From Bacteroidota bacterium (GTDB taxonomy: Bacteria; Bacteroidota; Rhodothermia; Rhodothermales; UBA10348): 64,000 bases of DNA. Made by a program: the position numbers and the translations under genes. Under the pieces are notes generated by a model. The model worked only from the letters and a program-made list of their open reading frames with translations. It searched no databases and was not told the DNA's origin. How positions within the stretch are numbered: position 1 is the first letter of the stretch; every line of letters starts with the position of its first letter. This document shows positions 990 through 21,407 of the stretch, piece after piece. The stretch is taken from assembly GCA_029262855.1 (NCBI GenBank), contig JAJCYP010000106.1, forward strand, positions 34,867 through 98,866, read 5' to 3'.

Positions 990-2321
990 CTAAAACCGTA
1001 ACCTGAAGACCGTCCGCTCGCCCGGCCGGGAGGTGGCGCTGATGGACCCGCCGTGGACCCGCATGATCTCCCGGGAAAGACTCAGGCCGATCCCGGACCC
1101 GTCCTTTTTTGTCGTAAAGAAGGGGACGAAAATCTTGTCGATGGCCTCCTCGACGATTCCGTGGCCGTTGTCCACGACGCGAATCACGGCGTGTGAACGG
1201 GGATCGATGAAGGCCTCCAGTCGAATCTCCGGATCTTCGACGCCCGTGAAAGCCTGAGCGGCATTCTTGAGCAGATTGATCAGGACCTGCTCCACCAATT
1301 GCCGGTCGGCGGTGAGCTGGAGGCTCTTGGGTTCGATGGACTGGACCAGATGGATGCCGCCCGCATCGAGGTCCGGCTCGACCAGCCTTGCCATGTCGGC
1401 GAACAGGGCCTCGACAGGAAAAATTTCGAAGTCGGGAGGCGGGACGCGGGCGAGCCGGCGGTAGTCGTCCACAAACGTCAGCAGCGACTTACTCCGTCGT
1501 GCGATGGTCTGGACGGCCCCGTGGACATCCTCCCGGTTTTCCTCCGAACCTCCCGGCTCGTCAAGCAGGGAGGACACGGTGGACGCCAGGGACGATATCG
1601 GCGCTACCGAGTTCATGATCTCGTGCGTCAGCACACGGGTCAGTTTCCTCCAGGCCTCGACCTCCATTTCGTCAAGTTCACCCTGGATATCCTGGAGCGA
1701 CACCAATTTGAAGAGCACGTCGCGCACCTTGAAGCCGGTAGCATGCACGGAAAGCTGCAGGATGTCGTCTCCGTCGATCACCTTGACCAAGGCCTTCTCG
1801 CCGTACTTCAGGTCGACCAGTGCCTTGACGAGATCAGGACTCAGGTCGGCCAGGTCATTGACGTTCTTGAGCAGCGGCCTACGGAGCAGGCGCTTGGCCG
1901 AGGTGTTGATCAGGTCTACCGATCCGTCCTCGCGAAACGAGAGAAGGCCGATGCCAACGTGCTGCATGACGGTCTCCAGGTAACGGTAGCCCTCTTCCTT
2001 CTCCGCCCGCGCCGTTCGGAAGTCCTCCATGACGGCCCGGAAAGCGCCGCCAAGATCCCGAAACGCCCCGCCGCGACTGAGGGCGCCGAAGCTTTGGGTG
2101 AAGTCCGAGTAGCGAATCGACATGAGCAGCCTAGCCAGGTCCCGAGCCGTCGCCTCCATGTAGCGAACGATCGCGACCCCCTGGTAGAGCGCGAACAACC
2201 CGATCACAAACGCCCCGGCCCACGACCCAGGACCGAGCAGGAGGTACACGAACCCCGCGAGAGTCAGCCCGAGGGCGCTCACGCGAATGACAACCTGAAC
2301 CCTGAATCGGCGAAAAATCAC
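990..2321 (-). CDS. NtrY-like sensor histidine kinase
   Basis: Two N-terminal TM helices, H-box LTHEIMNSVAPISSLA, N-box LINLLKNAAQAF, G-boxes DNGHGI and GSGIGLSLS. Confidence 0.9.
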   Translation of the reverse strand: MIFRRFRVQVVIRVSALGLTLAGFVYLLLGPGSWAGAFVIGLFALYQGVAIVRYMEATARDLARLLMSIRYSDFTQSFGALSRGGAFRDLGGAFRAVMEDFRTARAEKEEGYRYLETVMQHVGIGLLSFREDGSVDLINTSAKRLLRRPLLKNVNDLADLSPDLVKALVDLKYGEKALVKVIDGDDILQLSVHATGFKVRDVLFKLVSLQDIQGELDEMEVEAWRKLTRVLTHEIMNSVAPISSLASTVSSLLDEPGGSEENREDVHGAVQTIARRSKSLLTFVDDYRRLARVPPPDFEIFPVEALFADMARLVEPDLDAGGIHLVQSIEPKSLQLTADRQLVEQVLINLLKNAAQAFTGVEDPEIRLEAFIDPRSHAVIRVVDNGHGIVEEAIDKIFVPFFTTKKDGSGIGLSLSREIMRVHGGSISATSRPGERTVFRLRF

Positions 2322-3709
2322 AGGCCGTACTTGTCCAGGCGCCGGTAGAGCGAGGCGCGTGTGAGTCCCAGTTCCTCCGCCGCCTGGCTGATGTTGCCTC
2401 CCTGCTTCTCGAGGGCGCGACGGATCACCGTCTTTTCTACCGCCGCCAGGTCGTAGGTGTCGAACACAAAGCCGTCATAGGACTCGTCGATCTCATGCTC
2501 GCCGGTAAAGAAGAAGTCCTCGGGCTGGAGCACTGCCGACTCGGTCATGATCATGGCGCGCTCTATCATGTGCTGAAGTTCGCGGACGTTTCCAGGCCAG
2601 CGGTATTTCTCGAGTTTTGCCAGGGCCCCCGAACTGCAACCCCGGATGTTCTTCTGATATTTCTGGCGGTACTGGTCCAGGAAGAAGTCCACCAGGAGCG
2701 GAATGTCCGCAACGCGCTCGCGCAGCGGAGGCAACCGGATTTCGATGGTGTTGATGCGGTACAGGAGATCCTGGCGAAATGTCTTTCCACGCACCATCTC
2801 ATAAATGGGCATGTTGGTGGCGCAGATCAGGCGAACGTCGAACGGAATCGCCTTGTTTGAGCCGACGCGAATGATCTCGCGGCGTTGCAAGGCGGTAAGC
2901 AGCTTGGCCTGAAGGGGGGCCGAGAGGTTGCCGATTTCGTCCAGAAACAGCGAGCCACCAGAGGCCACTTCGAACCGGCCCGCCCTGTGCTCGCGGGCAT
3001 CGGTGAAGGCGCCCTTGGTGTGGCCGAACAGTTCGCTCTCGAACAGAGATTCTGCGATGGCCGCCATGTCGACGGTGACAAAAACCTCGTCCTTTCGCAG
3101 TGAAGCCCGGTGCAGCGCGCGCGCTACCAGTTCCTTTCCGGTCCCGTTCTCACCCAGAATGAGGACGTTCGCATCGGTCTCTGCCACCTTGTCGATGGTC
3201 TCGAAGACCCGCTGCATGGTGGGGGCGGCGCCGCCGATGAACTCCTGGTAGGGATGGTCGAGGTCCCTGGCCAGTTGGCGTCCACGGTTCCTCAGCAGTC
3301 CGATCTCCCGGCGTGATTCGCGCAGTCGACTGGCCGATGACAGGGTTCCCAACAGGCGCTCGTTCTGCCAGGGTTTGACCACGAAATCCGTCGCGCCTTC
3401 CTTGATGGCGCGGACGGCCGTGGCGACGTCTCCATACGCCGTGATCATCACCACCACGGCCGACGGATCATACTCCAGGATTTGGCCGAGCCAGTGAATG
3501 CCCTCGCGGCCGCTGGTGACGTCCTGCTTGAAGTTCATGTCCAGGAGGATCAGGTCGTAGTCCTCATTCCGGACGAGGGACGGGATGCGCTCCGGATTCT
3601 TCTCGGTGTGTATACGGGCGGCGTGCTTCTTCAGCAGGAGCTGGAGTGCGTGCAGGACGTCCGCATCGTCGTCTACGATCAACAGGCTGCCGAGGGTGGT
3701 GCTCATCAC
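2318..3709 (-). CDS. NtrC-family sigma-54-dependent response regulator
   Basis: Receiver domain, AAA+ with GENGTGKE Walker A and ELFGHTKGAFTDA (GAFTGA-type) loop, C-terminal Fis-type HTH (GGNISQAAEELGLTRASLYRRLDKYGL); overlaps the kinase by 4 nt. Confidence 0.95.
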   Translation of the reverse strand: MMSTTLGSLLIVDDDADVLHALQLLLKKHAARIHTEKNPERIPSLVRNEDYDLILLDMNFKQDVTSGREGIHWLGQILEYDPSAVVVMITAYGDVATAVRAIKEGATDFVVKPWQNERLLGTLSSASRLRESRREIGLLRNRGRQLARDLDHPYQEFIGGAAPTMQRVFETIDKVAETDANVLILGENGTGKELVARALHRASLRKDEVFVTVDMAAIAESLFESELFGHTKGAFTDAREHRAGRFEVASGGSLFLDEIGNLSAPLQAKLLTALQRREIIRVGSNKAIPFDVRLICATNMPIYEMVRGKTFRQDLLYRINTIEIRLPPLRERVADIPLLVDFFLDQYRQKYQKNIRGCSSGALAKLEKYRWPGNVRELQHMIERAMIMTESAVLQPEDFFFTGEHEIDESYDGFVFDTYDLAAVEKTVIRRALEKQGGNISQAAEELGLTRASLYRRLDKYGL

Positions 3710-3805: not shown

Positions 3806-3821
3806 TGTACGAAATCGTACA
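3806..3821. promoter_or_regulatory. Candidate activator site (UAS1), TGTACGA-AA-TCGTACA
   Basis: 7-bp inverted arms; 13/16 identical to the dyad at 3875-3890; between a divergent NtrC-like gene and the operon it probably controls. Confidence 0.6.
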
Positions 3822-3874
3822 GTTTTCGGGCGAAAAAGGAACGGGCCCGAACCTCGTCGGCCAGGCCCAGCCAC

Positions 3875-3890
3875 TGTCCGATATCGGACA
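3875..3890. promoter_or_regulatory. Candidate activator site (UAS2), TGTCCGATATCGGACA
   Basis: Perfect 16-bp palindrome, upstream of the sigma-54 -24/-12 element. Confidence 0.65.
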
Positions 3891-3953
3891 CCCGATGTAC
3901 ACGGACGCGCACTCCGCGATTCAAAATCACCCTTTTTGGCGGCCTTCGCGAAC

Positions 3954-3969
3954 TGGCATATGCCTTGCA
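3954..3969 (+). promoter_or_regulatory. Sigma-54 (-24/-12) promoter, TGGCAT-ATGCC-TTGCA
   Basis: Matches TGGCAY-N5-TTGCW with correct GG/GC spacing; 50 bp upstream of the HlyD-like ATG. Confidence 0.75.
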
Positions 3970-4018
3970 AAGGGGCGGGCGGCTCATAGCCCTTTACTTC
4001 CAAACCCGCACCCGCCGC

Positions 4019-5380
4019 ATGTCCGAAGACCTTCCAGCCAGCTCCGCCTCGATCCTGACGCGGAAGATCGGAGACGGTCCGTCCGGAGGAGGCGCGCCTC
4101 GGCGCGGAGGCGGCTCAACAGGCGAGGGCGCGGATCGCCGAGTCAAGAAACCCGTGTTCACGCCCGGGCGCATTGGCGCTGTGGTGGTCGGCGTGATCAT
4201 CGTACTCCTGTTGGGCTATGCCTTCCGCTCTTCTGTCGGCGGGCAGCGTCTGCGCGTTCAGGCTGAGCGCCTCACGGTTTCGACCGTGGCAATTGGGCCG
4301 TTTCAGGAATACGCTCAGGTCACGGGAAACGTCATGCCTCGCCGCACGGTGTACCTGGATGCGGTCGAGGGGGGGCGGGTCGAAGAGATCTTCGTGCTCG
4401 AGGGCACGCAGGTCGAGGCCGGTGATCCACTGCTTCGCCTCTCGAACAATGACCTGCAGCTTCGCCTGATCAACGCCGATGCGCAGCGGATGGAGCAGAT
4501 CAATCGCGTCCAGGACACGCAATTCCGGATGGAGCAGAACGCGCTCAATCTCAGGCAGCAGATCGCCCAGATGGATTTCAACATCCAGCGATTCGGGAAG
4601 CTGCATCGTCGAAACGTCGAGATGTTCGAGCAGAAACTGATTTCCCAACAGGAGTACGACACCACCAAGGACGAGTATGACTACTGGCTGGCGACGAAGA
4701 GACTGACTCTGGAAGGGTACAGAGCGGACTCCGTGAGGACCGCCAGTCAGCTCGGCCAGATGCAGGCCTCGGTAAACCGGATGAGCGCCAACTTCAATGT
4801 CATCCAGCGCATCCTCGACAACCTGATCGTCCGAGCGCCAATCGCCGGACAACTAACCGCGCTGAATGTGGAGTTCGGAGAGCTCCACAGCTCTGGCTCC
4901 CGCCTCGGCCAGATCGACGAAATCAGTGGATTTCGCATCCGGGCCGGCGTGGACGAATTCTACATCGCCCGTGTCGCAGCCGGACAGTCTGCAACCACTT
5001 TGCCGGTGGCCGGTGTCGAATACCCCATGACAGTCACGCGTGTATACCCTGAGGTTCTGGATGGACGGTTCGAGGTGGATCTTGAGTTTGTGGGTTCTAC
5101 ACCCCCAGACATCCGCCGAGGGCAGACTATACGATTCAGGCTGGAGATGAGCGATTCGGCTGATGCCCTGTTGCTGCCGCGAGGTGGTTTCTTCGAGACC
5201 ACCGGTGGCAGTTGGGTCTTCGTTTTGACCGACGATGGAGAGGCCGTCCGCCGGGATATCCGCGTGGGACGGCAGAACCCCCAATACCTGGAGGTGATGG
5301 AAGGACTACAGGCCGGCGAGCGCGTGATCACCTCGAGCTACAATTCTTTCGGAGACGCAGACCGATTGATCCTGGAATAA
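4019..5380 (+). CDS. HlyD/MacA-type efflux periplasmic adaptor
   Basis: ATG at 4019 gives MSEDLPASSASILTRKIG..., one TM helix (IGAVVVGVIIVLLLGYAF), lipoyl/barrel-sandwich and coiled-coil region. Track ORF start at 3482 is an over-extension. Confidence 0.9.
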   Translation: MSEDLPASSASILTRKIGDGPSGGGAPRRGGGSTGEGADRRVKKPVFTPGRIGAVVVGVIIVLLLGYAFRSSVGGQRLRVQAERLTVSTVAIGPFQEYAQVTGNVMPRRTVYLDAVEGGRVEEIFVLEGTQVEAGDPLLRLSNNDLQLRLINADAQRMEQINRVQDTQFRMEQNALNLRQQIAQMDFNIQRFGKLHRRNVEMFEQKLISQQEYDTTKDEYDYWLATKRLTLEGYRADSVRTASQLGQMQASVNRMSANFNVIQRILDNLIVRAPIAGQLTALNVEFGELHSSGSRLGQIDEISGFRIRAGVDEFYIARVAAGQSATTLPVAGVEYPMTVTRVYPEVLDGRFEVDLEFVGSTPPDIRRGQTIRFRLEMSDSADALLLPRGGFFETTGGSWVFVLTDDGEAVRRDIRVGRQNPQYLEVMEGLQAGERVITSSYNSFGDADRLILE

Positions 5381-5410: not shown

Positions 5411-6103
5411 ATGATCAAGACAGAGTCCCTGTCAAAGGCTTACCGGACCGATGAGGTCGAGACCACCGCGTTAAACGGGGTGTCGATTCACATCACCCCC
5501 GGCGAGTTCGTCTCCGTGATGGGTCCATCGGGCTGCGGAAAGTCCACCATGCTGAACATCCTGGGTTTGCTCGACAGTCCGTCTGACGGCAGTTACGTGT
5601 TCAACGGAACCGAGGTCGCGACACTCTCCGAGAGGCAGCGGGCGCAGTTGCGAAAGGGCAACATTGGATTCGTTTTCCAGTCGTTCAATCTAATCGACGA
5701 GCTGACTGTGTACGAGAATGTGGAATTGCCCCTGCTCTACCTGGGCGTTTCGGCCACGGAGCGTAAGGAGCGTGTCGGTGCGGCCCTCGAGCGCACCCAG
5801 ATCATGCACCGGAAGGACCACTTCCCGCAGCAGTTGTCGGGTGGTCAGCAGCAGCGCGTAGCTGTCGCTCGGGCCGTGGTCGCCAATCCGGCGCTGATCC
5901 TCGCCGATGAGCCCACCGGAAATCTGGACTCCACCAACGGGGAGCAGGTGATGAAGCTGTTGACCGAGCTGAACGAGGCCGGTACCACCATCGTGATGGT
6001 CACGCACTCGCCGGCGGATGCCGAATACAGCCACCGAACCATCCATCTGTTCGACGGCCATGTGGTGACGGAGAACTTCATGTCCAAGACCTACGCCGTC
6101 TAG
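5411..6103 (+). CDS. ABC transporter ATP-binding protein (MacB/LolD type)
   Basis: Walker A GPSGCGKST, signature LSGGQQQRVAVARA, Walker [10 protein letters not shown]. Confidence 0.95.
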   Translation: MIKTESLSKAYRTDEVETTALNGVSIHITPGEFVSVMGPSGCGKSTMLNILGLLDSPSDGSYVFNGTEVATLSERQRAQLRKGNIGFVFQSFNLIDELTVYENVELPLLYLGVSATERKERVGAALERTQIMHRKDHFPQQLSGGQQQRVAVARAVVANPALILADEPTGNLDSTNGEQVMKLLTELNEAGTTIVMVTHSPADAEYSHRTIHLFDGHVVTENFMSKTYAV

Positions 6104-6148: not shown

Positions 6149-8560
6149 ATGTTTTCCCATTACCTGAGGCACGCGGCCAGGCTGCTGGCCAAGCAGCGCC
6201 TGCATACGGGCATCAATGTCCTTGGCCTGGCGACAGCGCTTGGCCTCTGTGCCATCATCGCGGTGTTCATCAAGTATGAGCACAGCTACGATGCATGGCA
6301 CGAAAACCTGGACCGCATCTACCGGGTGGATCGGGTTGATCTCAATCCAGACGGAAGCGTGGATGGCCACAGTCCAGCACATCCGTTCCAATTGGCGGGA
6401 GCCCTGGAGCGGGATCATCCGGATATCCAGGAGACGGTTCGTTTCAACGACACCGATGTCGTGTTTCGCATTGATGGCGCACTCCACCAGGAGGATGTCC
6501 TGTTTGCCGATGCGTCCTTCTTCGATGTGTTCACCTATCAATCGGTCTACGGCGATCTACGGACGTCACTCCAGGACCCGGCCTCCGTCGTCCTCACCGA
6601 GTCCGCGGCCGATCGCCTCCTCGGTCCCGGGAATCCAATCGGTCGCAGCCTCCAGGTCAGGTACACCGACAGCTTTCACGAAGTCGTGGTGACAGCCGTG
6701 ATCGCCGATCCCCTCCCGAATACGAACATCCCGTTCGAGGTGATGATGTCCTTCGAGCGCCTGCCGCTGGTGTACGAATGGGTTGCAGAGCGGGTGGACA
6801 GTTGGCGGCATTCGTCTTTTCCGGTCTATGTGCTCCTTCGTGAGGGGGCCAACCTGGCATCCGCGACGGAGACCATCGAATCGCTGCGGGTTCAGTACTA
6901 TCCCGACATGGCGTCCCGTGGGCGGGAGCAGGGATGGTGGACCGGGGAGGGAGAGCCGGCGACCTACGCACTCATCCCGCTGAGCGACCTCCATCTGAGA
7001 AGCGATGTGCCGGGCGGGTTCGTTGCGACGAGCGATCCATCCTACTCCTGGATTCTCTTTGGCATCGGCCTCCTGATCCTCGTACTCGCGTGCATCAACT
7101 TCACGCTGCTGACGATGGGGAAGAGCGCCGTGCGGGCCGAAGAGATCGGAGTCCGAAAGGCCCTCGGCGCCGGCCGGTGGGAGATCATGACCCAGTTCGG
7201 CGGTGAGTCCTTGCTCATGGCGCTGCTGGGACTCGCCGGAGGGCTCCTTTTGGCCGGTCTGCTCCTGCCCGTGGCCAATTCCATTACGGGTAGCGAGCTC
7301 GACCTGCTGGGCGAACCTGGAGTCTTGGTTGTGATTGCGGCCGTCGCCCTGCTCAGTGGCCTGGCCGCCGGGAGCTATCCCGCGCTGATGATCTCTCGCC
7401 ACAGGCCCACCGAGGCCTTGTCGGGCCGATTCAGCATGGGGTCGTCCAGTGCGATCACCCGCGGCCTCCTGATCACGCAGTTCGCCGCCTCGGTGGCCCT
7501 GATCGCTGGAGCCCTGGTCATGCAGGCACAGATTCGGTTCCTTCAGGAGCAGGACAAAGGGTATGACCCCTCCAACATCATCGTGGTCTCAACCAATGGG
7601 ACCGATGAGTTCCGGCTGATCCGGCACCTTCGCGATCGACTGGGTCCCCAACCCGGGGTTCTCGGCGTTTCCGGGATGTCGCTCTCGCTCAATCGGGGCT
7701 ATTCGTCTTCCGTGTGGATGGCCGGCGATGTTGAGCGGCGTGCCTTCGTCTACAACGTGGCCCCGGACCTGCCGGAATTTCTTGGAATGGACATGCTGTC
7801 CGGCCGGGGTTTCGACTCGGCCCGGGCCACAGACTCGACGAACGCCGTGATCGTCAACGAGGCCTTTGCCCGTGACTGGGGCTGGACACCCGAGGAAGCA
7901 GTGGGCCAGCTCGTAGCCGAATACGGAGACGAACCCGAGATCATCGGCGTAGTCCGCGACATGAACTTTCGGTCGCTGCACGAGGAGGTGGAGCCCATGA
8001 TGCTGACCCAGAGCGAGGGTTGGCTGAGCCATGCGCTCGTCCGTGCCTCATCGGCGGGGACGCCGCAGGTCCTCGCCTCGCTGCAGGAGGCCTGGGGCGA
8101 GTTCACGGCCGACGCACCGCTGCAATACACGTTTCTGGATGACGATGTCGCACTCGCCTACGAGGAGGATCGACGCTGGGCACGCATTATCGGCATCTCG
8201 GCGTCGCTGGCCATCTTGGTTGCCTGCATGGGGCTCTTCGGCCTTGCGGCGCTCACCGTGAGCAGGAGGACCAAAGAAATCGGGATCCGCAAGGTGCTCG
8301 GAGCGAGTGTGCAGAGTGTGATGCTGCTGGTGTCGCGCGAGTTCGCAATTCTGGTAGTTGTCGCCACCCTGATCGGGGCGCCCTTGGCCTATTTCGGCCT
8401 GGGGCGGTGGCTGGACGGTTTCGCTTTCAGGATGGACCTGGCGCCCTGGTGGTTCCTGGCTGCTGGCGCGCTGGTGTTGCTCGTGGCCATGACGACGGTC
8501 GCCTTTCATTCCGTCCGGGCCGCCATTTCCGATCCCGTCAAATCTCTTCGCTACGAGTAG
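6149..8560 (+). CDS. ABC transporter permease (MacB_PCD + two FtsX domains)
   Basis: 803 aa; N-terminal TM + periplasmic core; two FtsX-type segments (EIGVRKALGAGR..., EIGIRKVLGASV...). Confidence 0.9.
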   Translation: MFSHYLRHAARLLAKQRLHTGINVLGLATALGLCAIIAVFIKYEHSYDAWHENLDRIYRVDRVDLNPDGSVDGHSPAHPFQLAGALERDHPDIQETVRFNDTDVVFRIDGALHQEDVLFADASFFDVFTYQSVYGDLRTSLQDPASVVLTESAADRLLGPGNPIGRSLQVRYTDSFHEVVVTAVIADPLPNTNIPFEVMMSFERLPLVYEWVAERVDSWRHSSFPVYVLLREGANLASATETIESLRVQYYPDMASRGREQGWWTGEGEPATYALIPLSDLHLRSDVPGGFVATSDPSYSWILFGIGLLILVLACINFTLLTMGKSAVRAEEIGVRKALGAGRWEIMTQFGGESLLMALLGLAGGLLLAGLLLPVANSITGSELDLLGEPGVLVVIAAVALLSGLAAGSYPALMISRHRPTEALSGRFSMGSSSAITRGLLITQFAASVALIAGALVMQAQIRFLQEQDKGYDPSNIIVVSTNGTDEFRLIRHLRDRLGPQPGVLGVSGMSLSLNRGYSSSVWMAGDVERRAFVYNVAPDLPEFLGMDMLSGRGFDSARATDSTNAVIVNEAFARDWGWTPEEAVGQLVAEYGDEPEIIGVVRDMNFRSLHEEVEPMMLTQSEGWLSHALVRASSAGTPQVLASLQEAWGEFTADAPLQYTFLDDDVALAYEEDRRWARIIGISASLAILVACMGLFGLAALTVSRRTKEIGIRKVLGASVQSVMLLVSREFAILVVVATLIGAPLAYFGLGRWLDGFAFRMDLAPWWFLAAGALVLLVAMTTVAFHSVRAAISDPVKSLRYE

Positions 8561-8563
8561 TCC

Positions 8564-9274
8564 ATGCCCGATTCCATCATCCGCGTACAGAATCTCACCA
8601 AGTCATACGACCATGGGCTGTCGCAGTCCCACGTGGTGCGGCGTGTCAGCCTGGAGGTCCGGCAAGGCGAGTTTCTGTCGATCATGGGCCCGTCCGGTTC
8701 CGGAAAATCGACCCTGCTGCACATTCTGGGCATGCTGGACGAGCCTACCAGCGGGGAGTACTTCTTCCTGGACGAACCGGTGCACCGGCTGAGCAATCGG
8801 CGCAAGACCCAATTGCATCGCGAGAACATCGGATTCGTCTTTCAGGCCTACCATCTGATCGATGACCTGACGGTCTACGAGAATCTGGAGACGCCCCTGC
8901 TCTACCGGAAGATCAAGGGAAGCGAGCGCAAGAGTATCGTGGCCGATGCGCTGGACCGCTTCAACATGGTGGCCAAGAAGGACCTCTTTCCCAGCCAGCT
9001 GTCGGGCGGACAGCAGCAACTGGTGGGCGTAGCGCGCGCCCTCGTCATCCAGCCCAAGATCATTCTCGCCGATGAGCCGACCGGCAATCTGCATTCGTCT
9101 CAGGGCGACCAGATCATGGCAACGCTGAGGCAGCTCAATCAGGAGGACGGCGTGACCATCGTTCAGGTTACGCACAATCAGGACTACGCCAACATCGGCG
9201 ACCGGGTCATCGAACTCCTGGACGGGCGAATTGAACGCGAGTACCGGCCAGAGGCTTCACCAAACATGGACTGA
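8564..9274 (+). CDS. ABC transporter ATP-binding protein (MacB/LolD type), second copy
   Basis: Walker [10 protein letters not shown], signature [14 protein letters not shown], Walker [10 protein letters not shown]. Confidence 0.95.
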
Positions 9275-9277
9275 GTA

Positions 9278-9541
9278 ATGAGCATGATCTGCATCCCCAT
9301 TCCCGATCTGCACAAGCACAAGACCGTCGATCTCGAGATCACGGTAGACGGCGAGAAGCGCGCCCTCACGTACAGGGTGGAATCGTTTCCGTGGCCCGAG
9401 GTCCTCTCGTCCGGTGACAAGGTCGACCTGCTCAGAAGCTACCTGAAGCACGAAACGGGCGAGTGGGAACTGGTGCAGATCGGCCCCCCAGACCGGGAAA
9501 TGGTGCCGATCACATTTCGTAGGGAGGTCGGCCAGTGCTGA
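9278..9541 (+). CDS. 87-aa protein of unknown function inside the ABC operon
   Basis: 3 nt after the upstream stop and overlapping the next permease start by 7 nt; no recognised domain. Confidence 0.7.
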   Translation: MSMICIPIPDLHKHKTVDLEITVDGEKRALTYRVESFPWPEVLSSGDKVDLLRSYLKHETGEWELVQIGPPDREMVPITFRREVGQC

Positions 9542-11982
9542 AGAGCTACCTGAAGGTCGCGCTGCGCCGTTTTCGGCGAGGGGGCACGTATGCAATCGTC
9601 AACGTTGTGGGATTGGCCGTGGGGATGGCCACGTGCACGCTGATTTTCCTGTTGGTGCACCACGAGTGGAGCTTCGATCGCTTTCACGAGGAGGCCGACC
9701 AGATTTATCGCGTCTATCTGTCCTACGACGATCCTGCCGGCGACGCGCAGGCCCAGGCCATGATGCCGCCCGATTTCACCCCGGAGCTCGCGAATGCGTT
9801 TCCGGCCGTCGAAGCCTACACCCGATTCGTGGAGAACGGGCGCGACTTCGCGTCGGGTGACCGCACTTTCCGGTACAGCTTTGCCGAGATCGATCCGGAC
9901 TTCTTCGAGATGTTCACCTTCGATGTCCTGGCGGGCGATGCGGTCCGAGCCATTGAGGATCCCTCCTCGCTCATCGTGACCCGCGAGGTGGCCTCCACCA
10001 TCTTTGGGGCCGATGACAATGACTGGTCCGGGGCGCTGGGTCAGGTGCTGTCCACATCCACCGACGATGCCACCTTCAGCTTTTCTGTAGCTGCAGTCGT
10101 GGAGGACTTTCCGAACAACTCGAGTCTCTCCTTTGAAATCGCCGCATCGTTCGAGAACTACGACAACATCTACGTCGGCGGGAATAACTGGGGCGGGCGG
10201 ACAAGCACCTACGTGATGCTGGCGCCGGGAGCGGATCCGTCCACGCTGGAGGCCTCCTTCCAGCCTTTCACGGACGTCCAGTTTGCCAACTACGTGGACG
10301 GGATGCGCCAGGCCGAACGCATGTCCACCGAAGACGGTGCATACGCGCTCAGGCTGCAGCCGCTGACAGAAGTCCACTCGGATCTGGACGTCTGGGTGCC
10401 CTACGAGGCCGCGCAGCATGACCCGTTGTACTCCTTCATCCTGATGGGCATCGGGGCGTTGATTCTGCTGATCGCCTGCATCAACTTCATGACGCTCTCG
10501 GTGGGCCAGTCCACCATGCGCGCCCGCGAAGTAGGAGTTCGGAAGGTACTCGGTGCCGATCGCCGCCAGATCATGTGGCAGCATTGGGGCGAGTCGCTTG
10601 TCGCGGCCGGGGCATCGCTGGCCATCGGTTTCGGACTGGCTGTGACCCTGTTGCCGGGGTTCAATAACCTCGTCGGCGTTCAGATAAGCCTTTCCAGCGT
10701 GTCTCCGTTCGCCATTCTGGCGGCGCTCGTCTTCTTGATGATCCTGGTCGGGGTCGTGGCCGGTGGCTATCCCGCAGCGGTCCTGTCCAGGTATCGTCCC
10801 GCGACGGTGCTGAAGGGGAGCGTTGCCTCGCCCCGCAACAACAGGCTGACCCAATCGCTGGTCGTGCTCCAGTTCACCATCTCGATCGGGCTGATCGCGG
10901 CCACGGCTATTATGACCGACCAGCTGAGCTACATGCTGGAAAAGGACCTGGGCTTCGAGGACGATTTCGTAGTTGCGATCGGCTCACGAGGCATCGCCAG
11001 GGGAGAGGCGGATGGCGTTCTGTCCGGTCTCAAAGACCGTCTGTTGCCGTTCGACCAGATTACGCACATCGAACGGAGTGGGTACACGTTTACCCGCGGC
11101 TCGGATCGCAATGGCTGGGCGGATGCAGCCGGCAGACCCTGGCAGGCCTACAACTTCGGCGTCGGGTATGGCTATCTCGACCTCCTGCAGATGGAGATGG
11201 CCGAGGGTCGCTTCTTTTCCGAGGAGTACCCGGGCGACCCGACGGGTTCCATCGTCGTTAACGAAGCGTTGGTTCGGGAGATGGAGATAGAAGAACCCAT
11301 CGGCCACGTCCTCACCAACTGGCTAAGTTTCATCTACGACGAGTCTCCGACAATCGTGGGCGTGGTGAAGGACTTCCACATCCAGTCGTTGCGAAACGAG
11401 ATCGAGCCCCTGGTGATGAACATGCATCCCGACTACTACAACTATATGGGAGCGGTATTGGTGCGCATCAAGCCGGATGACGTGCAGGGATCGCTGGCTC
11501 TTCTGGAGAACACCTGGGGCGAGGTCACAGGCGGAAGACCGTTCACCTACTCATTCGTCGATGAGGATCTGGCGGCGCAATACGCTGCTGAATCCAGTTG
11601 GCAGCGCCTGGTGACCTACTCTTCGATTCTGGCCATTATTATCGCCTGTATGGGGCTCTTCGGTTTGGCGATCCTCACGGTCACTCGCAGAACGAAGGAA
11701 ATCGGAATCAGGAAGGTTCTAGGCGCCTCCGTTACAGGCGTGACGAGCCTGCTCTCGAGAGAGTTTGCCGTGTTGGTGGCGATCGCCAGCGTGCTCGCGG
11801 CGCCTCTGGCTTGGTACGCCATGTCCCGGTGGCTCGAGTCGTTCGCTTTTCAGGTGAACATCTCGATATGGACCTTCATCGGTGCTGCCGGGCTGGCGCT
11901 TGCCATAGCAATGGCCACGGTTTCCATGCACGCCGTCCGGGCGGCACGGGCCAACCCGGTGCGGTCCCTGAGATACGAGTGA
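9535..11982 (+). CDS. ABC transporter permease (MacB_PCD + two FtsX domains)
   Basis: 815 aa paralogue of 6149-8560. Confidence 0.9.
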   Translation: MLKSYLKVALRRFRRGGTYAIVNVVGLAVGMATCTLIFLLVHHEWSFDRFHEEADQIYRVYLSYDDPAGDAQAQAMMPPDFTPELANAFPAVEAYTRFVENGRDFASGDRTFRYSFAEIDPDFFEMFTFDVLAGDAVRAIEDPSSLIVTREVASTIFGADDNDWSGALGQVLSTSTDDATFSFSVAAVVEDFPNNSSLSFEIAASFENYDNIYVGGNNWGGRTSTYVMLAPGADPSTLEASFQPFTDVQFANYVDGMRQAERMSTEDGAYALRLQPLTEVHSDLDVWVPYEAAQHDPLYSFILMGIGALILLIACINFMTLSVGQSTMRAREVGVRKVLGADRRQIMWQHWGESLVAAGASLAIGFGLAVTLLPGFNNLVGVQISLSSVSPFAILAALVFLMILVGVVAGGYPAAVLSRYRPATVLKGSVASPRNNRLTQSLVVLQFTISIGLIAATAIMTDQLSYMLEKDLGFEDDFVVAIGSRGIARGEADGVLSGLKDRLLPFDQITHIERSGYTFTRGSDRNGWADAAGRPWQAYNFGVGYGYLDLLQMEMAEGRFFSEEYPGDPTGSIVVNEALVREMEIEEPIGHVLTNWLSFIYDESPTIVGVVKDFHIQSLRNEIEPLVMNMHPDYYNYMGAVLVRIKPDDVQGSLALLENTWGEVTGGRPFTYSFVDEDLAAQYAAESSWQRLVTYSSILAIIIACMGLFGLAILTVTRRTKEIGIRKVLGASVTGVTSLLSREFAVLVAIASVLAAPLAWYAMSRWLESFAFQVNISIWTFIGAAGLALAIAMATVSMHAVRAARANPVRSLRYE

Positions 11983-12035: not shown

Positions 12036-14459
12036 CTATTCGTCCCGCAGGGCGTCAACCGGATTGGCTGTGCTGGCGCGAATGGCCTGGTAGCTGACTG
12101 CGATGAGCATGACGAGAAGTGCGGCAACGCCGGCACCGAGGAACGGGCCCGCTCCGACAGGGGCTCGGTAGGCGAACCCGCCCAGCCAATCGTTCATGCC
12201 GAGCCAGGCCACCGGGGCAGCCACAACAAACGCGATGCCAACCAGGACACTGAATTCGCGCGTGAAGAGGCCGACGATCCCGGCGATGCTGGATCCCAGG
12301 ACCTTTCGGAGTCCAATCTCTTTGCTCCTCCGCGAAACCGACAGTGAAGCGAGCCCAAACAGTCCCAGACCGGCGATCAACACGGACAGGAGTGCTCCCA
12401 GGCTTACCATGCTGGAAAGACGGGCCTCCTGCCGATACTGTTGAGCGATGTTGTCGTCCACGAATGAGTAGGAAAAAGGCATCTCCGGCGCGACCTCAGC
12501 CCAGATGGAGGAGAGCTTGTCGATGGTGCCGGGCACGTCCGATCCCGCAATCCGGAGGGCAATCTCGGGCGCAAATGAACCCTCGTAATCGGCGTCCTGC
12601 GCTCCGGAAAAGGCAACGTTGGAGCTGAGTACGAACAGTGCCGGCTGGATTTCGGTATGCAGCGAGGCAAAGTGGAAGTCCTCCACCACGCCGATGATTT
12701 CGTGTTCGTCGAAATTGGCGCCGGGCAATGTCGAGGCGAGTGGCTCCTCCCAGTTGTGGGTAGCCACGAACGCCTGGTTGACGATGACGGCACGATCCGT
12801 GTCCCCTGGCTGGTCCCGGTCGAAGTCGCGGCCGGACAGGATGCGCAGTTGGAGGGTGCTCACGAAGTCGTGATCGACCACATTGACGAAATGGCGTTTG
12901 TAGGTCCCGTCGGTTGCCGTATACCCGACGCGTGCCCAACCATTCTGGTCAAACAGCATGGCGGCCGAGGTCAACGAAATCACGGCCGGATCGGCTTCAA
13001 GCCTGAACCGAAGTCGGTCGGCGATCTCCTGCCCCTCGGCAATCGAGGCGACCGTCGGAATACTGACAATCGACTCCTTGGCAAAGCCAAGATCCTTGTT
13101 CTCCAGGAAATCCAGTTGCTTGCCGATGATCAAGGTGCTGGCGATGAGAAGAATCGAAAGAGCAAACTGTCCGACGACGAGAATCTTGCGGACCCGGCTC
13201 CTATCGGCGCCCGTCGAAACGGCACCACGGAAGGCATCGATCGGCGAGAAGCGCGAGAGCACAAATGCCGGATACAGACCCGCAAGAAGGCCTACGGCCA
13301 CAAAGATGCCGCCGAGCAGGAAGGCCGTCTGACCGTCCAGTGTCAACGCCAATTCGCGCTGGGCGAGACTGTTGAATCCCGGCAGGGCCAAGCTGGCCAG
13401 CATGAACCCGATAATCATCGAGAGACCCGTAAGCATGAGGGCCTCGCCCCAGTACTGCGCCATCAACTGGCCCCGATCTGCTCCGATCACCTTCCGGACA
13501 CCAATTTCCTTGGCCCGGGTGAGCGAGCGCGAGACCGACAGCGTCACGAAGTTGATACAGGCAATGCTCAGGATCAGCAGGGCCAGGGCCAGCAGGATCC
13601 GGACGTACATCGGATTGACAACCGCGGAGTAGCCCTCCGGGAAGTCGGGATTCATGTGGATGTCGTGCAGCGGCTGCAGGCCCACCTGATACTGGCCCTC
13701 CTCGACCCGGTCGCCGATCACGGACGTGATCATGGGCGGGATCTTGGCACGGACCGCTTCGATGTCTGCACCCTCAGAGAGGAGGACATAGGTCTCCGGA
13801 CTGATGTTGAAGAAGGCCGTCTTGAACCGGTCTGAATAGAACCACTCGTCGACGGCATAAGACAGCAGCAGTTCGAACTGCAGACTCGAGTTTTCCGGCG
13901 GGTCCGCCAGGACGCCTGTCACCTGAAACTGCCTGGGCTCGCCACTGAAGTCAATGCTGAGGATCTCACCCATCGGATCGGCCTGCCCGAAATAGCGCGT
14001 CGCAGCCGTCTCGGTAAGGACGATGTTTTCCTGACTCGCCAGCATGGTGCGCCGATCACCCGCCACCACCGGAAAGTCAAACACCTCAAGGAAGGTGGTT
14101 TCCGCCACGTGGATCTGCTCGTTGTGGCTGGTATCGCCCCGCCTGACCGTGTCATGGAATCGGTCGAAGCGGGCAATGGCCTCTATCTCGGGAATCGCGG
14201 CTTTGAGATCGGGCCCCGTCCGGTAAGGCGTGGTCGTGTTGAAGTGGACCTGGTTGGGACCGTAGTCCTCCAGAACCCAGGCCCGGTAGATTCGGTCGGC
14301 CTTCTGGTGGCCGCTGTCGAACGTGATCTCGTTGCGGACAAACAGCAGGAGCAGCAGCGCGGCCGCGATACCTACCGACAGCCCGACCAGGTTGATGGCA
14401 GAAAAGCTGGCCTGACGCCGAAGGACACGAAAGGTGGTACGGAGGTAGTGTCGGAGCAT
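12036..14459 (-). CDS. ABC transporter permease (MacB_PCD + two FtsX domains), third paralogue
   Basis: 807 aa, same architecture as the two plus-strand permeases. Confidence 0.9.
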   Translation of the reverse strand: MLRHYLRTTFRVLRRQASFSAINLVGLSVGIAAALLLLLFVRNEITFDSGHQKADRIYRAWVLEDYGPNQVHFNTTTPYRTGPDLKAAIPEIEAIARFDRFHDTVRRGDTSHNEQIHVAETTFLEVFDFPVVAGDRRTMLASQENIVLTETAATRYFGQADPMGEILSIDFSGEPRQFQVTGVLADPPENSSLQFELLLSYAVDEWFYSDRFKTAFFNISPETYVLLSEGADIEAVRAKIPPMITSVIGDRVEEGQYQVGLQPLHDIHMNPDFPEGYSAVVNPMYVRILLALALLILSIACINFVTLSVSRSLTRAKEIGVRKVIGADRGQLMAQYWGEALMLTGLSMIIGFMLASLALPGFNSLAQRELALTLDGQTAFLLGGIFVAVGLLAGLYPAFVLSRFSPIDAFRGAVSTGADRSRVRKILVVGQFALSILLIASTLIIGKQLDFLENKDLGFAKESIVSIPTVASIAEGQEIADRLRFRLEADPAVISLTSAAMLFDQNGWARVGYTATDGTYKRHFVNVVDHDFVSTLQLRILSGRDFDRDQPGDTDRAVIVNQAFVATHNWEEPLASTLPGANFDEHEIIGVVEDFHFASLHTEIQPALFVLSSNVAFSGAQDADYEGSFAPEIALRIAGSDVPGTIDKLSSIWAEVAPEMPFSYSFVDDNIAQQYRQEARLSSMVSLGALLSVLIAGLGLFGLASLSVSRRSKEIGLRKVLGSSIAGIVGLFTREFSVLVGIAFVVAAPVAWLGMNDWLGGFAYRAPVGAGPFLGAGVAALLVMLIAVSYQAIRASTANPVDALRDE

Positions 14460-14493: not shown

Positions 14494-14509
14494 TACAACC
14501 CCTGTGCCA
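14494..14509 (-). promoter_or_regulatory. Candidate sigma-54 promoter, TGGCAC-AGGGG-TTGTA
   Basis: Perfect -24 half; -12 half deviates at one core position (TTGT instead of TTGC); 35 bp upstream of the permease ATG. Confidence 0.45.
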
Positions 14510-14581
14510 TTGCCCGGACCGATGAAATTGATCCCTAAAGGCCGCTTCCTCTGTCCGATATGCTCGCATCCGATCACCGGG

Positions 14582-14597
14582 TGTTCGGATGTGGACA
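14582..14597. promoter_or_regulatory. Candidate activator site, TGTTCGGATGTGGACA
   Basis: Fits TGTNC-N6-GNACA shared with 3806-3821 and 3875-3890; about 80 bp upstream of the -24/-12 candidate; a half site TGTCCGATAT also lies at 14552-14561. Confidence 0.4.
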
Positions 14598-14601
14598 CCT
14601 G

Positions 14602-17361
14602 TTAGCGAATCAAGGTCATGCTGCGTGTGAAGCGTTCCTGACCCACGGTCAGAGCGTACAGGTAAAGGCCCGATGGGGCCTCGGCACCCGAAGACACCCT
14701 GCCGACCCATTGCACCTCGTGGCGACCGGCAGGCAGAACGCCCCGTACCAGGGTCTGAACACGCCGGCCGAGCACGTCGAAAACGGTCAGCGTGACGTCG
14801 GTGCGTGCCGACAGTTCGAATGCCAAGGTCGTTACCGGGTTGAAGGGATTCGGGTAGTTCTGGTGCAGGACGAAGCCGCTGGGAAGGTCGGCTGACTCGT
14901 TCGCGATCGAGGAGGCTGACGCCTGGATCAAGATCAGATCGGCCTGCAGGAGCCCGCCGACTTCGGTGACCGCCACCACCTCGATGAAGGAGCCTTCCGG
15001 AATATCCTCGAGGGCAATGCTCTGGTTCGTCCCATCGGAAAAATCAGTGTTGCTGCTGACGCCGATTTCGAGGCCGGCCGTGCGGAATCGGTCAACGAGC
15101 TTCGCGGTGATGACGCCCGCCACTATGATGGTTTCCTGCACGGCTATGTGAGCCGCGATGATTCCCGCGTCGCCGGCGGTACCGGTGACCAGGACGCGCT
15201 GTCCGAGAGCCAGGGCGGCTGCGGAAATAGGGAGTGCGTTTTCATCGACGAGATCGGCGCTCGCAAACTCGACCATCACGCCACTGACGGTAAGGGTGAA
15301 CCCATCGATCGCCTCAATCTTACCTGCGTGGGTCACTTCGTCCGCTGTGCCCGCGTCCGCTGGCCTGATCCTTTCTGCGTAGAGTGAACCATCCGCCAGG
15401 TGACGGAATCGGACCGTCGCGGGATCGCCTATGTCTGGTATTCCGTTGTCAATTCGGGTGTCGGCATCGATGCTAAATCTGGTCCCGGCAACGACGATGG
15501 CATCGCTGGCGATTTCCGTAACGGGTCCGGTCAGTCGGCCAGCAATGGACAAGTCTTGTTTGACCGAAATCTCGGCGGCAACTAGCCCCTGGTCAGATTC
15601 GAATCCTTCAATCTTGACGGTCATGCCGAGGCTCAGCCCCTCATAGAAAAGCTCATCGCCCGATCGATCTCGAATGTCAGTGTCAACGGTAACCTGGAAC
15701 GAGAGATTGCCGACGGTCAGCGTTCGCAGATCAGCGTTGAGTTCGGAGATGTTGCCGGCGATTTCAACGTCGTCGTCCTGATACCGAACCAGGAGTTTGA
15801 TCTTGACTGCGAAGAGCGAGCCATCTGACTTGGCAACAGCGTGCACGCGAACGGTCTCGCCGACCTGGAGGTCAGCCAACGTGAGTTTCGAACCTCGCTC
15901 ACCTTTGATATCGGTGACGTCAGATACTTGCACATCTGTACCGGAAACGAGGAGGCTCGAGTCGGAGATGCCGTCAATAAGCCCCTCCAGTTCCTGCATG
16001 TCGCCCATTCCGCCCTTCACCCGGACTCGGGTGGCAAGCAACGAGCCGCCGTCCTGCACGGTGGCTTCGACCTCGACCTCCACGCCGATGGCGAGGTCGC
16101 CAAAGGTGATGTCGAATGGAAGTTTGCTCTCAAATTCGGTGTCCGAGTTCACCAGAAAGACGACACCATCCACACCGAAAGTCTCAGAGCCCAGGGCGTC
16201 GATGACACCGCGTGCATCGACCTCGTTTCGCCCGTTGTCGTTTTCCTTCTTGATGCGAAGCGCGATGAGCGTGCCAGACTCCTCGACGTACTCTACCTCG
16301 ACCTGATCGCCCGGGACCAGGTCTGCAATGCTGGAGCCACCGGCAAAATGCGTTTGGTCGGTGATAGCAAAGGTGAAGTCTCCGACCACCAGTTCGGTAT
16401 CGGTGACGGTGGTGACTTGTCCCTCAATCTCTTCGCGATCGTCGTCGGAGGCGGAGGTGCGCAGTCGCACGACCACGTGGGTCGCCACCCAGGCGCCATC
16501 GGCCTTGCTGGCGTCGACCGACACCTGCATGCCTTCTTTGAGGTCGGCGGCGGCCAGCGCGTGACCGTCCTCATCCTCGATGACCGTGGTGCTCGTCAAC
16601 TGCAATTCAAGCTTCTTGACGACAATGTGCTCGGCGCCGGTTTGTGTGATCTTTCCCTTGAGGCTTACCGACTGGCGGTCTGATGCGATCAGCTTGATGA
16701 CAACGGCAACCAGTGTCCCGTCAGCCGCCTCGACGGCCTCAATTTCCACGGTCTGATCCAACAAATCGGCCAAAACTGTTCCGTTGGGCGCGACAATCCG
16801 GGTCCGGTCAATCACATGGATCTCCCGTCCGCCAACAGTCAGGGAGGCGGTACCTACGGCCTCGACTTTCCCGCGTAATTCGATGGTCTGATGCCCGTCG
16901 CCATCGTCGCTGTCATCTCCGTCGCCGTCGTCTCCATCGTCTCCATCGTCGCCGTCGTCCGAAGGTCTCTCCACCTCAACGGTCACACCGGCGCGAAATC
17001 GCGAGCGACCCGACGTCAATTCGACCGAGACCTCCCAGTCTCCAGCCTTTCCCTGGAGGGTGGAGACTGGCACAGATGCGCCGTAGAAATTTCTGTCAGC
17101 ATCCAGGTGAAGAGCATCTTGAATCCGATCGCCATTTCCTTTCGGACGAATCTGGAAGGTCGCCGAATCAATCGTGCCCGAGGGCACGGCTACCCGAAAA
17201 TGAATGGTCTCGTGGAGTCCGAATGCCGAGGTTTCGCTCAAGAAACTCCCATCGCTAGAGACCTGAAGGCCAAGTTGCCCCTGTCCCTGGGCGAGGGCCG
17301 GAGCGGCCGCCACGATCAGGACGATGAGTACAGCGGCGAAGCGGCGAAGGAGTGCGGTCAT
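14602..17361 (-). CDS. Secreted DUF5666-repeat protein with T9SS type A-like/FlgD-like C-terminal domain
   Basis: Signal peptide (LLRRFAAVLIVLIVAAAPALAQG), nine ~70-aa repeats, Asp/Gly linker, C-terminus QNYPNPFNPVTTLAFEL...GLYLYALTVGQERFTRSMTLIR. Confidence 0.85.
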   Translation of the reverse strand: MTALLRRFAAVLIVLIVAAAPALAQGQGQLGLQVSSDGSFLSETSAFGLHETIHFRVAVPSGTIDSATFQIRPKGNGDRIQDALHLDADRNFYGASVPVSTLQGKAGDWEVSVELTSGRSRFRAGVTVEVERPSDDGDDGDDGDDGDGDDSDDGDGHQTIELRGKVEAVGTASLTVGGREIHVIDRTRIVAPNGTVLADLLDQTVEIEAVEAADGTLVAVVIKLIASDRQSVSLKGKITQTGAEHIVVKKLELQLTSTTVIEDEDGHALAAADLKEGMQVSVDASKADGAWVATHVVVRLRTSASDDDREEIEGQVTTVTDTELVVGDFTFAITDQTHFAGGSSIADLVPGDQVEVEYVEESGTLIALRIKKENDNGRNEVDARGVIDALGSETFGVDGVVFLVNSDTEFESKLPFDITFGDLAIGVEVEVEATVQDGGSLLATRVRVKGGMGDMQELEGLIDGISDSSLLVSGTDVQVSDVTDIKGERGSKLTLADLQVGETVRVHAVAKSDGSLFAVKIKLLVRYQDDDVEIAGNISELNADLRTLTVGNLSFQVTVDTDIRDRSGDELFYEGLSLGMTVKIEGFESDQGLVAAEISVKQDLSIAGRLTGPVTEIASDAIVVAGTRFSIDADTRIDNGIPDIGDPATVRFRHLADGSLYAERIRPADAGTADEVTHAGKIEAIDGFTLTVSGVMVEFASADLVDENALPISAAALALGQRVLVTGTAGDAGIIAAHIAVQETIIVAGVITAKLVDRFRTAGLEIGVSSNTDFSDGTNQSIALEDIPEGSFIEVVAVTEVGGLLQADLILIQASASSIANESADLPSGFVLHQNYPNPFNPVTTLAFELSARTDVTLTVFDVLGRRVQTLVRGVLPAGRHEVQWVGRVSSGAEAPSGLYLYALTVGQERFTRSMTLIR

Positions 17362-17488: not shown

Positions 17489-20400
17489 CTACATATTCCG
17501 TCGGTACTGTCCGCCGACCTCGAAGAGGGCCGACGTAATTTGCCCTAGAGAACAGACGCGCACGGCATCCATAAGCACCGAAAACACATTCTCACCGGTG
17601 CGCGATGCCTCCTGGAGCCGCTCCAGCATGGCCGGAGCCCGGTCCGTGTTTCGACTCTTGAAGGCTCGAAGCGAGGCAAGCTGATCGTCCTTCTCGGCCG
17701 TCGAGGATCGCATGAGGGCCGGGCCGCCGGAGCCGGCTGTGGGCTGCTCGCCCAGAAACGTGTTCACGCCAATCACCGGGAGTTCGCCCGAGAGCTTCTG
17801 CCGCTCGTAGAACATCGACTCCTCCTGGATCTTGCCGCGCTGGTACATGGTCTCCATCGCGCCAAGCACGCCCCCCCGATCATTGATGCGCTCGAACTCC
17901 GTGAGGACGGCCTGCTCCACCAGGTCCGTCAGCTCGTCGATGATGAACGCGCCCTGCAGCGGGTTCTCGTTCTTTGCCAGCCCCAACTCACGGTTGATGA
18001 TCAGCTGGATCGCCATCGCCCGACGCACGCTCTCCTCTGTCGGCGTCGTGATGGCCTCGTCGTAGGCGTTGGTGTGCAGGCTGTTGCAGTTGTCGTAGAT
18101 GGCCATCAGCGCCTGCAACGTGGTCCGGATGTCGTTGAACTGGATCTCCTGGGCGTGCAGGCTTCGGCCGGACGTCTGGATGTGATACTTGAGCTTCTGG
18201 CTCCGCTCGTTGGCCCCGTAGAGATCGCGCATGGCCACGCTCCAGATCCGGCGGGCCACGCGGCCAATGACGGTGTACTCGGGATCCATCCCGTTGGAAA
18301 AGAAGAACGAGAGGCTTGGGGCGAACGCGTCCACGTCCATCCCGCGGCTCCGGTAATACTCAACCAGGGTGAAGCCATTGGAGAGGGTGAAGGCAACCTG
18401 GCTGATCGGATTGGCACCGGCCTCGGCGATGTGGTACCCCGAGATGGAAACGGAATAGAAATTCCGGACTCCGTGGTCGATGAAGGCCTGCTGGACATCG
18501 CCCATCAGGCGCATCGCAAATTCGGTCGAGAAGATGCAGGTGTTCTGGGCCTGGTCTTCCTTCAGGATATCCGCCTGGACCGTCCCACGGACCCGCGTCA
18601 TGGCTTCGGCCGAGATGCGGTCGCATTCCTCCTGACTCAGGAGGCCCCAATCCACCAGGTCCTGGGAAGTAGCCCCCATAAGGCCCAGCCCAGATCCGTC
18701 GTGGGTCGGGGGGAGGTCTTCTTCCGGGCCGCTGGGTCCGGTTGGCCGATACTTCGGGCGATTCGACCCGAGGCGCGTGTCCAGCTCGGATTCGACGGCG
18801 TCCCACCGTCCGGCCTCACGCAGGTAGCGCTCGACCTGCTGGTCGATGGCCGTGTTCATGAACATGGCCAGGAGCATCGGGGCAGGACCGTTGATGGTCA
18901 TCGAAACGCTCGTGGCCGGATCGCACAGGTCGAAGCCCGAGTACAGCCGCTTCATGTCGTCCAGCGTGCAGATCGAGACTCCGGCGTTTCCCACCTTGCC
19001 GTAGATGTCAGGGCGCTCATCCGGATCGAATCCGTAGAGTGTGACTGAATCAAACGCCGTGGACAGACGCTTGGCCGGCGTACCCTCGCTCACTAGATGG
19101 AACCGGCGGTTGGTCCGTTCGGGGTTGCCTTCACCGGCAAACATCCGCGTCGGATCCTCGCCCTCTCGTTTGAAGGGAAACACGCCGGCCGTGAACGGAA
19201 AGTAGCCCGGCAGATTCTCGAGCAGTGCGAAGCGCAATCGCTCGCCCGGGTCCTCGGTCCGGGGGAGGACCACCCGTGGAATCCGTGTGCCGCTGAGCGA
19301 CTCGCGGTAGAGCGGCACCTCGAACTCCCGGTTCCGGACCCTGTACGTGAAGGTGTCAGCCGTGTAGCGCGCGGCAGTATCGTCCCACCCCTCCAGAATG
19401 CGCTTGGAGTAGACGTCCAGGTGATTCCACCAGTGTTGGGACATCTCGGCAAGGCGGGTTTCGAGTTCCTTGCTGTCCTCTGGAGACCAGTCCTTCAGCT
19501 GGCCCAGGGCACCCTGAGCCTGCCCCCACTTGCGGGCGATGTCCACCTGCTGCTCGGCGTGGTCGCGATAGGACCGGCAGGACTCCGTGATCTCGCCCAG
19601 GTAGCGCTGGCGCCTCGGTGGAATGACGGCAGTTTCAACGGCCGGAAGCTCCGGCAGGTCGTGATCCCGAAACAGGTTGGTCTCACGGTCGAAGGAATAC
19701 TCGTCGTTCAGCTTGTCCAGGATCGCCAGATAGAGTCGGCTCACACCCGAGTCGTTGAACTTCGAGGCCATCGTCGGGAAAACCGGCATGGAGGCCGGGT
19801 CCGAGTGGAAGGCCGCCATGTTGCGCTGCATCTGCTTTCGGATATCCCTCAGGGCATCCTCGCTGCCGCGCTTCTCGAACTTGTTGAGCACCACCATGTC
19901 GGCCGCGTCCAGCATCCCGATTTTCTCGAGCTGTGTCGAGGCCCCGTAGTCCTGCGTCATCACGTAGACCGAAAGATCCACGAGCTCGGTAACCTCCGTA
20001 TCCGACTGCCCAATGCCGGCTGTTTCCAGAATGACGAGGTCGAAGCCTGCGGCCTTGCAGACCGCCAGACTCTCTTTCAGTGCTCCCGACGTGGCCCGAT
20101 GTGCCTGCCTGGTGGCGAACGAGCGCATGTAGACGCGGCCCGCGTGTTCGCCGTAGATGGAATTCATCCGGATCCGATCACCGAGCAGGGCGCCACCCGT
20201 TCGAACGCGTGTGGGGTCGACCGATATCACGGCGATCTCGATGTCCGGGAAATCATTCAGAAAGCGCCGGATGATCTCGTCGGTGAGGGTTGACTTGCCG
20301 GCGCCGCCGGTACCCGTGATCCCGATGGTCGGGACAGGCTTGAGCGTGATCCCGAGCGATCCGTCGCCAGCACCAACCGGGACGGCCCCGGCCGCTTCCA

Positions 20401-20932
20401 CCTTGTGCGCAGCGTCAGCCTCGACGGCAGACAGTTGCCGCGCCATTACCCGGGCGGAGCGCGTGCCGAGCGATGACCCATCCCGCGTACTCTCGAGCGG
20501 AAAATCGCATTCCTCCATCATGATGTTGATCATGCCCTGGAGTCCCATCGCCAGTCCATCCTCCGGCGAAAAAATGCGTGCGATACCGTAGGCGTGCAGC
20601 TCTTCGATCTCCGAAGGCACGATCACGCCGCCGCCGCCACCGTAGATACGAATGTGACCGCATCCCGCCTCCTGGAGGAGGTCATACATGTACTTGAAAT
20701 ACTCCATGTGACCGCCCTGGTAGGACGAGATGGCGATGCCGTTCACGTCCTCCTGAATCGCGGTGTCCACGACTTCCCGCACCGAGCGGTTGTGCCCCAG
20801 GTGTATCACCTCCGCGCCGGTCGCCTGCAGGATCCTCCGCATGATGTTGATCGCGGCATCGTGGCCGTCGAACAGGGAGGCGGCGGTCACGAATCGGACC
20901 GGGTGCTTTGTGGTGTAAACCTCGGCTTGCAT
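17489..20932 (-). CDS. icmF: Fused isobutyryl-CoA mutase (B12-binding domain, MeaB-like GTPase, mutase domain)
   Basis: N-term [24 protein letters not shown]...HLGHNRSV, central P-loop [10 protein letters not shown]-terminal mutase barrel ([25 protein letters not shown]). Start at [15 protein letters not shown] (20932) preferred over 21055. Confidence 0.92.
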
Positions 20933-21047
20933 GGCGTCAGAAGCTGTTGGAACGGTAGCCTGAATTGGACCGATCTCTCCAGCGAAAGTTCGCTGGGCGC
21001 GACGACCCCAAAATGTCCTAAACTGTCGCGAACCGTCAAGAGATCGT

Positions 21048-21407
21048 ATGTCCAAGGTTTCCGTTTCCGAAGCTCAGAAAGTCGCCTATGACCGGCTTTG
21101 TGCCACGCACCCTGAGATAGAGCGTAAAGGCAAGAACCTGCTCTACACGTCGGTGAACGGGCACATGTTTACCGTCTTCTCGACTGAGGGCAAGCTCGGA
21201 ATCCGACTGCCCAAGGCTGAGCGGGCCAAGTTCATCGAAGAGCACGGCTCCAGTATCCTGAGATCCTACGGGCACAACATGCCCGAGTATGTGACGATCT
21301 CGGACGAGATGCTTGAGGACACGGACACGCTCGCGCCCTACCTCACGATGAGCTACGCCTATGTGAGCGCACTCAAGCCGAAGCCCACGACGAAAAAGAA
21401 GAAGTAG
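21048..21407 (+). CDS. TfoX N-terminal-like domain protein
   Basis: 119 aa; [33 protein letters not shown]... resembles TfoX_N; basic C-terminal tail. Confidence 0.5.

Follow-up and report, generated by a model that had tools for sequence, protein, structure and literature searches.

The intergenic region between a divergent NtrC-family regulator gene and an exporter operon in the window (the whole 64-kb stretch of DNA analysed here) very probably controls a sigma-54 regulon devoted to exporters, for which we propose a mechanism step by step. Sequence comparison indicates that the region holds a real sigma-54 switch conserved across phyla, and predicted copies of the same switch front further exporter genes in this genome and in its relatives, which would together make up a small exporter regulon. 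Sites, geometry, conservation and targets are all read from sequence.

The minus strand of the window carries genes for a sensor histidine kinase (990-2321; Pfam HATPase_c and a weak HisKA match) and an NtrC-family response regulator (2318-3709, with an alternative ATG start at 3706). On the plus strand, domain profile matches identify a HlyD/MacA-like periplasmic adaptor (4019-5380), a LolD/MacB/DarD-like ABC ATPase (5411-6103), a duplicated, ADOP-like FtsX/MacB-type permease (6149-8560), a second ABC ATPase (8564-9274) and a second FtsX/MacB-type permease (9535-11982), giving the operon order HlyD-ABC-FtsX-ABC-FtsX. Identity of this operon with the darobactin exporter DarBCD was considered and rejected, as all three components score below the NCBIfam equivalog cut-offs (adaptor 184 against 450, ATPase 280 against 375, permease 96 against 700).

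The regulator combines a receiver, a sigma-54 AAA+ and a Fis-type HTH domain (PF00072, PF00158 and PF02954, all above cut-off). A GAFTGA-type loop had been attributed to it, but the exact GAFTGA is absent and the sigma-54 contact loop reads KGAFTDA. GAFTDA is a natural loop variant elsewhere (DVU2106) and has been listed among the variants expected to stay active (PMC4641369). Most of the ortholog clade has GAFTDA or GSFTDA; GAFTGA or GSFTGA occurs in the clade whose recognition helix has Lys or Arg (see below) and in the Kryptoniota/Ignavibacteria group. The source genome also encodes rpoN (PF04552, 202.7 bits, G000:C126). The kinase gene adjoins the regulator gene in nearly all ortholog loci, and in both the window kinase and its orthologs hydropathy reveals two transmembrane helices, a joining loop of about 5 residues and no periplasmic sensor domain. 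After this transmembrane part the orthologs have a conserved membrane-proximal stretch like RYVEKTNRDLTRFLxSIRYSDFSQTF.

The preliminary description placed two dyads and a -24/-12 element at 3806-3821, 3875-3890 and 3954-3969, and all three are present there: the dyads UAS1 (TGTACGAAATCGTACA) and UAS2 (TGTCCGATATCGGACA) and, by direct reading of the window, TGGCATATGCCTTGCA. The -24/-12 element itself (TGGCATATGCCTTGC, 3954-3968, plus strand) agrees with 9 of 11 consensus positions at the correct GG-N10-GC spacing and predicts a +1 near 3980; taken alone, such a match is not rare. The start-to-start distance to the -24 element, which lies downstream of both dyads, is 79 bp for UAS2 and 148 bp for UAS1. 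The window contains three copies of the proposed operator, TGTNC-N6-GNACA, where 0.71 would be expected, and a count of three is reached in 2 of 100 shuffles. The dyad is conserved in orthologs, where the consensus had to be tightened to TGTNCG-N4-CGNACA, with TGTGCG-N4-CGCACA in one clade. A genome-wide search, suggested at the outset, returned eight sites for this strict form and six in the reversed control. Because these counts are so close, the dyad without a sigma-54 partner proves nothing, and it was rejected as a regulon finder on its own. Identity with a LexA box was also set aside: compared with LexA sites as generally known, the half-sites stand in the opposite order, and the target genes do not suit such a site.

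Conservation at orthologous loci had been set beforehand as the refutation test, and the dyads proved to be kept in dozens of loci. Relatives of the regulator were found in Rhodothermales (the closest), Bacteroidota, Zixibacteria, Desulfobacterota, Kapaibacteria, Calditrichota, Spirochaetota and others, and the dyad recurs beside orthologous regulators in Rhodothermota, Bacteroidota, Zixibacteria, Desulfobacterota and other phyla. Most loci that have a regulator of at least about 58% identity and retain the HlyD operon carry a dyad with 0 or 1 mismatch upstream of HlyD, and in most of these TGGCAY-N5-TTGN follows downstream of the dyad on the HlyD strand. Where unrelated genes part the regulator from HlyD (L023, L024, L027 and L036), the dyad remains at HlyD. 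In Parapedobacter lycopersici (L073, 5344-6807), tandem dyads can be read between the divergent genes for HlyD and a TolC-like outer-membrane protein, and a sigma-54-like site faces the latter gene.

A joint scan with dyad and sigma-54 matrices over 1.04 Mb of loci gave 62 matches against one in reversed sequence, a contrast that describes rather than tests, since the training loci are counted within the 62. Among 18 ortholog loci fetched later, which include a few near-copies of training loci, 16 had joint matches and the reversed controls none. The same scan of 16 distant-paralog loci gave no match, and more distant regulators (about 50% identity; Parapedobacter and the Kryptoniota/Ignavibacteria group) mostly occur without the TGTNCG-N4-CGNACA dyad. 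Three Bacteroides-labelled MAGs (L049, L050 and L053) have a variant tandem dyad, TGTCCA-N4-TGGACA, with copies 22 bp apart at 101 and 79 bp from the sigma-54 site. It is because of the conserved joint arrangement that dyad and sigma-54 element exceed chance. That the dyads are chance palindromes in intergenic DNA, as single-motif genome counts near background might suggest, has a negligible probability in view of the multi-phylum conservation and the joint enrichment; ortholog conservation, joint scans and the second-target searches described below refute it.

The spacing of the sites follows a rule. In most cases 68-112 bp separate the dyad from the sigma-54 element downstream of it, which points towards the HlyD-ABC-FtsX operon, and the distances cluster near 69, 80, 90 and 101 bp. 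Helical phasing at 10.5 bp gave a Rayleigh R of 0.65 for first targets (n=25) and of 0.80 for second targets found by other means (n=22), with p-values that are optimistic because related loci are treated as independent. Paired dyads 20-22 bp apart are present at many promoters, and most orthologs have a single site or such a pair. In the window the corresponding partner is a degenerate dyad (TGTACACGGACGCGCA, 3896-3911) that begins 21 bp downstream of UAS2. It is positionally conserved in a same-genus relative, as is UAS2, the main predicted activator site.

These data bear on the roles given to the two dyads in the preliminary description, which saw UAS1 and UAS2 jointly as the enhancer of the efflux promoter. 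Two near-perfect dyads do stand within one intergenic region, and the same-genus relative carries extra distal dyads too. UAS2 fits the role, since its 79 bp are in phase with the preferred distances, but UAS1 is 69 bp (6.6 helical turns) from UAS2, which puts it out of phase with the efflux promoter by about half a turn, and it aligns with no site in the relative. Since most orthologs show one dyad or two in tandem at 20-22 bp, phasing and conservation both disfavour a shared UAS1-UAS2 enhancer, which we regard as unlikely. The comparison supports instead a predicted functional array of UAS2 and the degenerate dyad at 3896, which takes the place of UAS1.

UAS1 may serve the regulator's own expression or its local concentration. 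Autoregulation had been raised as a possibility, and a candidate divergent sigma-54 promoter for the regulator-kinase operon (CGGTACGGATTTTGG, 3750-3736, minus strand) stands at an in-phase distance of 71 bp from UAS1. Dyad and sigma-54 arrangements also face the regulator in L017, L025 and L027, at 69, 80 and 68 bp. The window element is nevertheless a poor match, although the best on the regulator side: the sigma-54 matrix gives it no more than 2.2 bits, and it has CGG as its -24 half. Most loci have no sigma-54 site facing the regulator. We give autoregulation through this promoter somewhat less than an even chance.

The predicted regulon extends beyond the operon. It was sought by genome-wide pattern searches blind to gene content, in which a strict joint pattern matched 13 times, in 10 of 114 genomes from the order, with no match in the control. 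All 10 genomes fall among the 32 that carry an ortholog of the regulator. Relaxed patterns gave 39 matches against 11 in the control for these 32 genomes, and 19 against 13 for the 82 genomes without the ortholog; the excess over control comes mainly from the regulator-bearing genomes. Second-target matches supported by a sigma-54 element lie upstream of FtsX, HlyD or ABC genes in 15 of 17 cases, one borderline element counted, and most matches in further search rounds do likewise. One pattern match (G000:C10:11489) had no sigma-54 match and was dropped as chance.

The predicted targets in the window genome are the HlyD operon, a third FtsX/MacB-type permease (12036-14459, minus strand, Pfam) that forms a separate transcription unit in the window, and one permease on each of contigs C59 and C105. 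The promoter region of the third permease, as predicted, consists of a sigma-54 element (TGGCACAGGGGTTGT, 14495-14509, minus strand), an activator dyad 88 bp from the -24 element (TGTCCACATCCGAACA on the minus strand, 14582-14597) and, 21 bp from that dyad, a degenerate tandem dyad with two mismatches (14561-14576). An ortholog of this permease with the same promoter is present in the same genus (L125). The window genome has 41 stretches with a MacB core domain, so the predicted regulon covers only part of its permease set.

Covariation connects regulator and operator. When the residue that follows the conserved TR/SR in the recognition helix is Lys or Arg, the operator has TGTGCG half-sites, and when this residue is Ala, Gly, Ser or Thr, the half-sites are of the form TGT[ACT]CG. 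In the tree the Lys/Arg-TGTGCG pairing maps to one clade, and therefore it counts as a single event. Covariation of this kind is what a direct contact between the protein and its putative operator predicts. A different factor, whether a repressor or an unrelated activator, could in principle bind the dyad and leave the NtrC-type neighbour incidental: the genome has numerous other sigma-54 activators (at least 17 among the matches listed), and that the regulator binds the dyad is something we infer. We consider this very unlikely, given that the joint motif tracks the presence of the regulator ortholog over the 114 genomes, that the dyad holds helical phase with the sigma-54 site and that its half-site covaries with the recognition helix.

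For binding by the neighbouring regulator we propose the following sequence of events. The adjacent kinase would phosphorylate the regulator, which would bind TGTNCG-N4-CGNACA as a dimer at sites and spacings marked out by conservation, often occupying one good dyad together with a tandem dyad about 21 bp, or two helical turns, away. DNA looping would bring it to the promoter, where its AAA+ ring, to judge from the protein family, would contact sigma-54 RNA polymerase at the -24/-12 element, open the promoter and thereby turn on the HlyD-ABC-FtsX-ABC-FtsX exporter. A copy of this module is also predicted to drive the permease at 12036-14459 and the two permeases on other contigs.

The closest known architecture is that of PrsK/PrsR, an NtrC-type regulator and a membrane kinase that activate numerous scattered units of one gene each; there a 17-nt activator motif, in some cases present more than once, is followed by a sigma-54 element after about 63 nt (Haft et al., 2006, PMC1569441). 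Activator motif, sigma-54 element, NtrC-type regulator and membrane kinase are all shared with the system described here. PrsR (TIGR02915) is also the best NCBIfam match of the window regulator, but identity was rejected with a score of 402.4 below the equivalog cut-off of 502.6. Furthermore, the PrsR motif ends in TTTACA, in contrast to TGTNCG-N4-CGNACA, and its targets are PEP-CTERM proteins rather than FtsX/MacB exporters.

A second likeness is to Bce modules (BceRS-BceAB), in which the transporter itself is the sensor (PMC10314905). As in those modules, the kinase has two transmembrane helices and no extracytoplasmic sensor domain and adjoins an FtsX-fold ABC transporter, whose expression it would control. 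Bce-type modules use an OmpR-type response regulator, whereas the regulator here is NtrC-type. Because the kinase has two transmembrane helices with almost no periplasmic loop, Bce-like transporter sensing can be put forward as a hypothesis. The system might then be a Gram-negative sigma-54 counterpart of Bce modules in many phyla, in which a sensor-less kinase reads the working state of the MacB/FtsX exporter and an activator with a GAFTDA loop and its own conserved operator induces a core exporter and dispersed, exchangeable FtsX permeases; this is a speculative reading that we hold to be rather doubtful. The GAFTDA loop itself has a counterpart in NorR, where the substitution G266D turns GAFTGA into GAFTDA and abolishes repression by the GAF domain (PMC2941729). 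The loop is native here and occurs with a receiver domain, whereas NorR has a GAF domain.

A link between sigma-54 and FtsX/MacB-type permeases was not proposed until 2025, and then in terms of gene categories, in a survey whose main-text passages report predicted sigma-54 promoters enriched upstream of COG0577 FtsX-like ABC antimicrobial-peptide permeases in Bacteroidia, Gammaproteobacteria and Opitutia and present this as the first such link (PMC12316311). For these permeases the passages give neither an activator nor an operator, and neither a tandem-site geometry nor a regulon, and Rhodothermota are absent from the main text. The type of circuit is already known, and our search of the open literature found no earlier description of the operator, regulator or regulon, nor any named system of that type. 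For sigma-54 control of FtsX/MacB-type exporters, the present analysis predicts which activator and which operator are involved, how the sites are spaced and which genes are targets. Proteins of the MacB type export antibiotics, peptides and lipoproteins, and how they are induced in Bacteroidota and Rhodothermota is, to our knowledge, poorly understood. The predicted operator allows the regulon to be listed from sequence in any genome, and the switch from Lys/Arg to TGTGCG would provide a direct handle on recognition-helix specificity.

Some further genes were recorded. In two genomes of family f13 (L202 and L197) the operator stands in front of genes for small membrane or secreted proteins, possible extra regulon members, one of about 107 aa in L202 and one cut by the contig end in L197. 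Beside the second target permease, the window encodes a 919-aa protein (14602-17361) that combines DUF5666 repeats, in 8 matched stretches, with a FlgD-type Ig domain, and DUF5666-like genes are present in the L137 locus too. The window also encodes a protein with fused B12-binding, MeaB GTPase and mutase domains (17489-21055), an IcmF-like arrangement.
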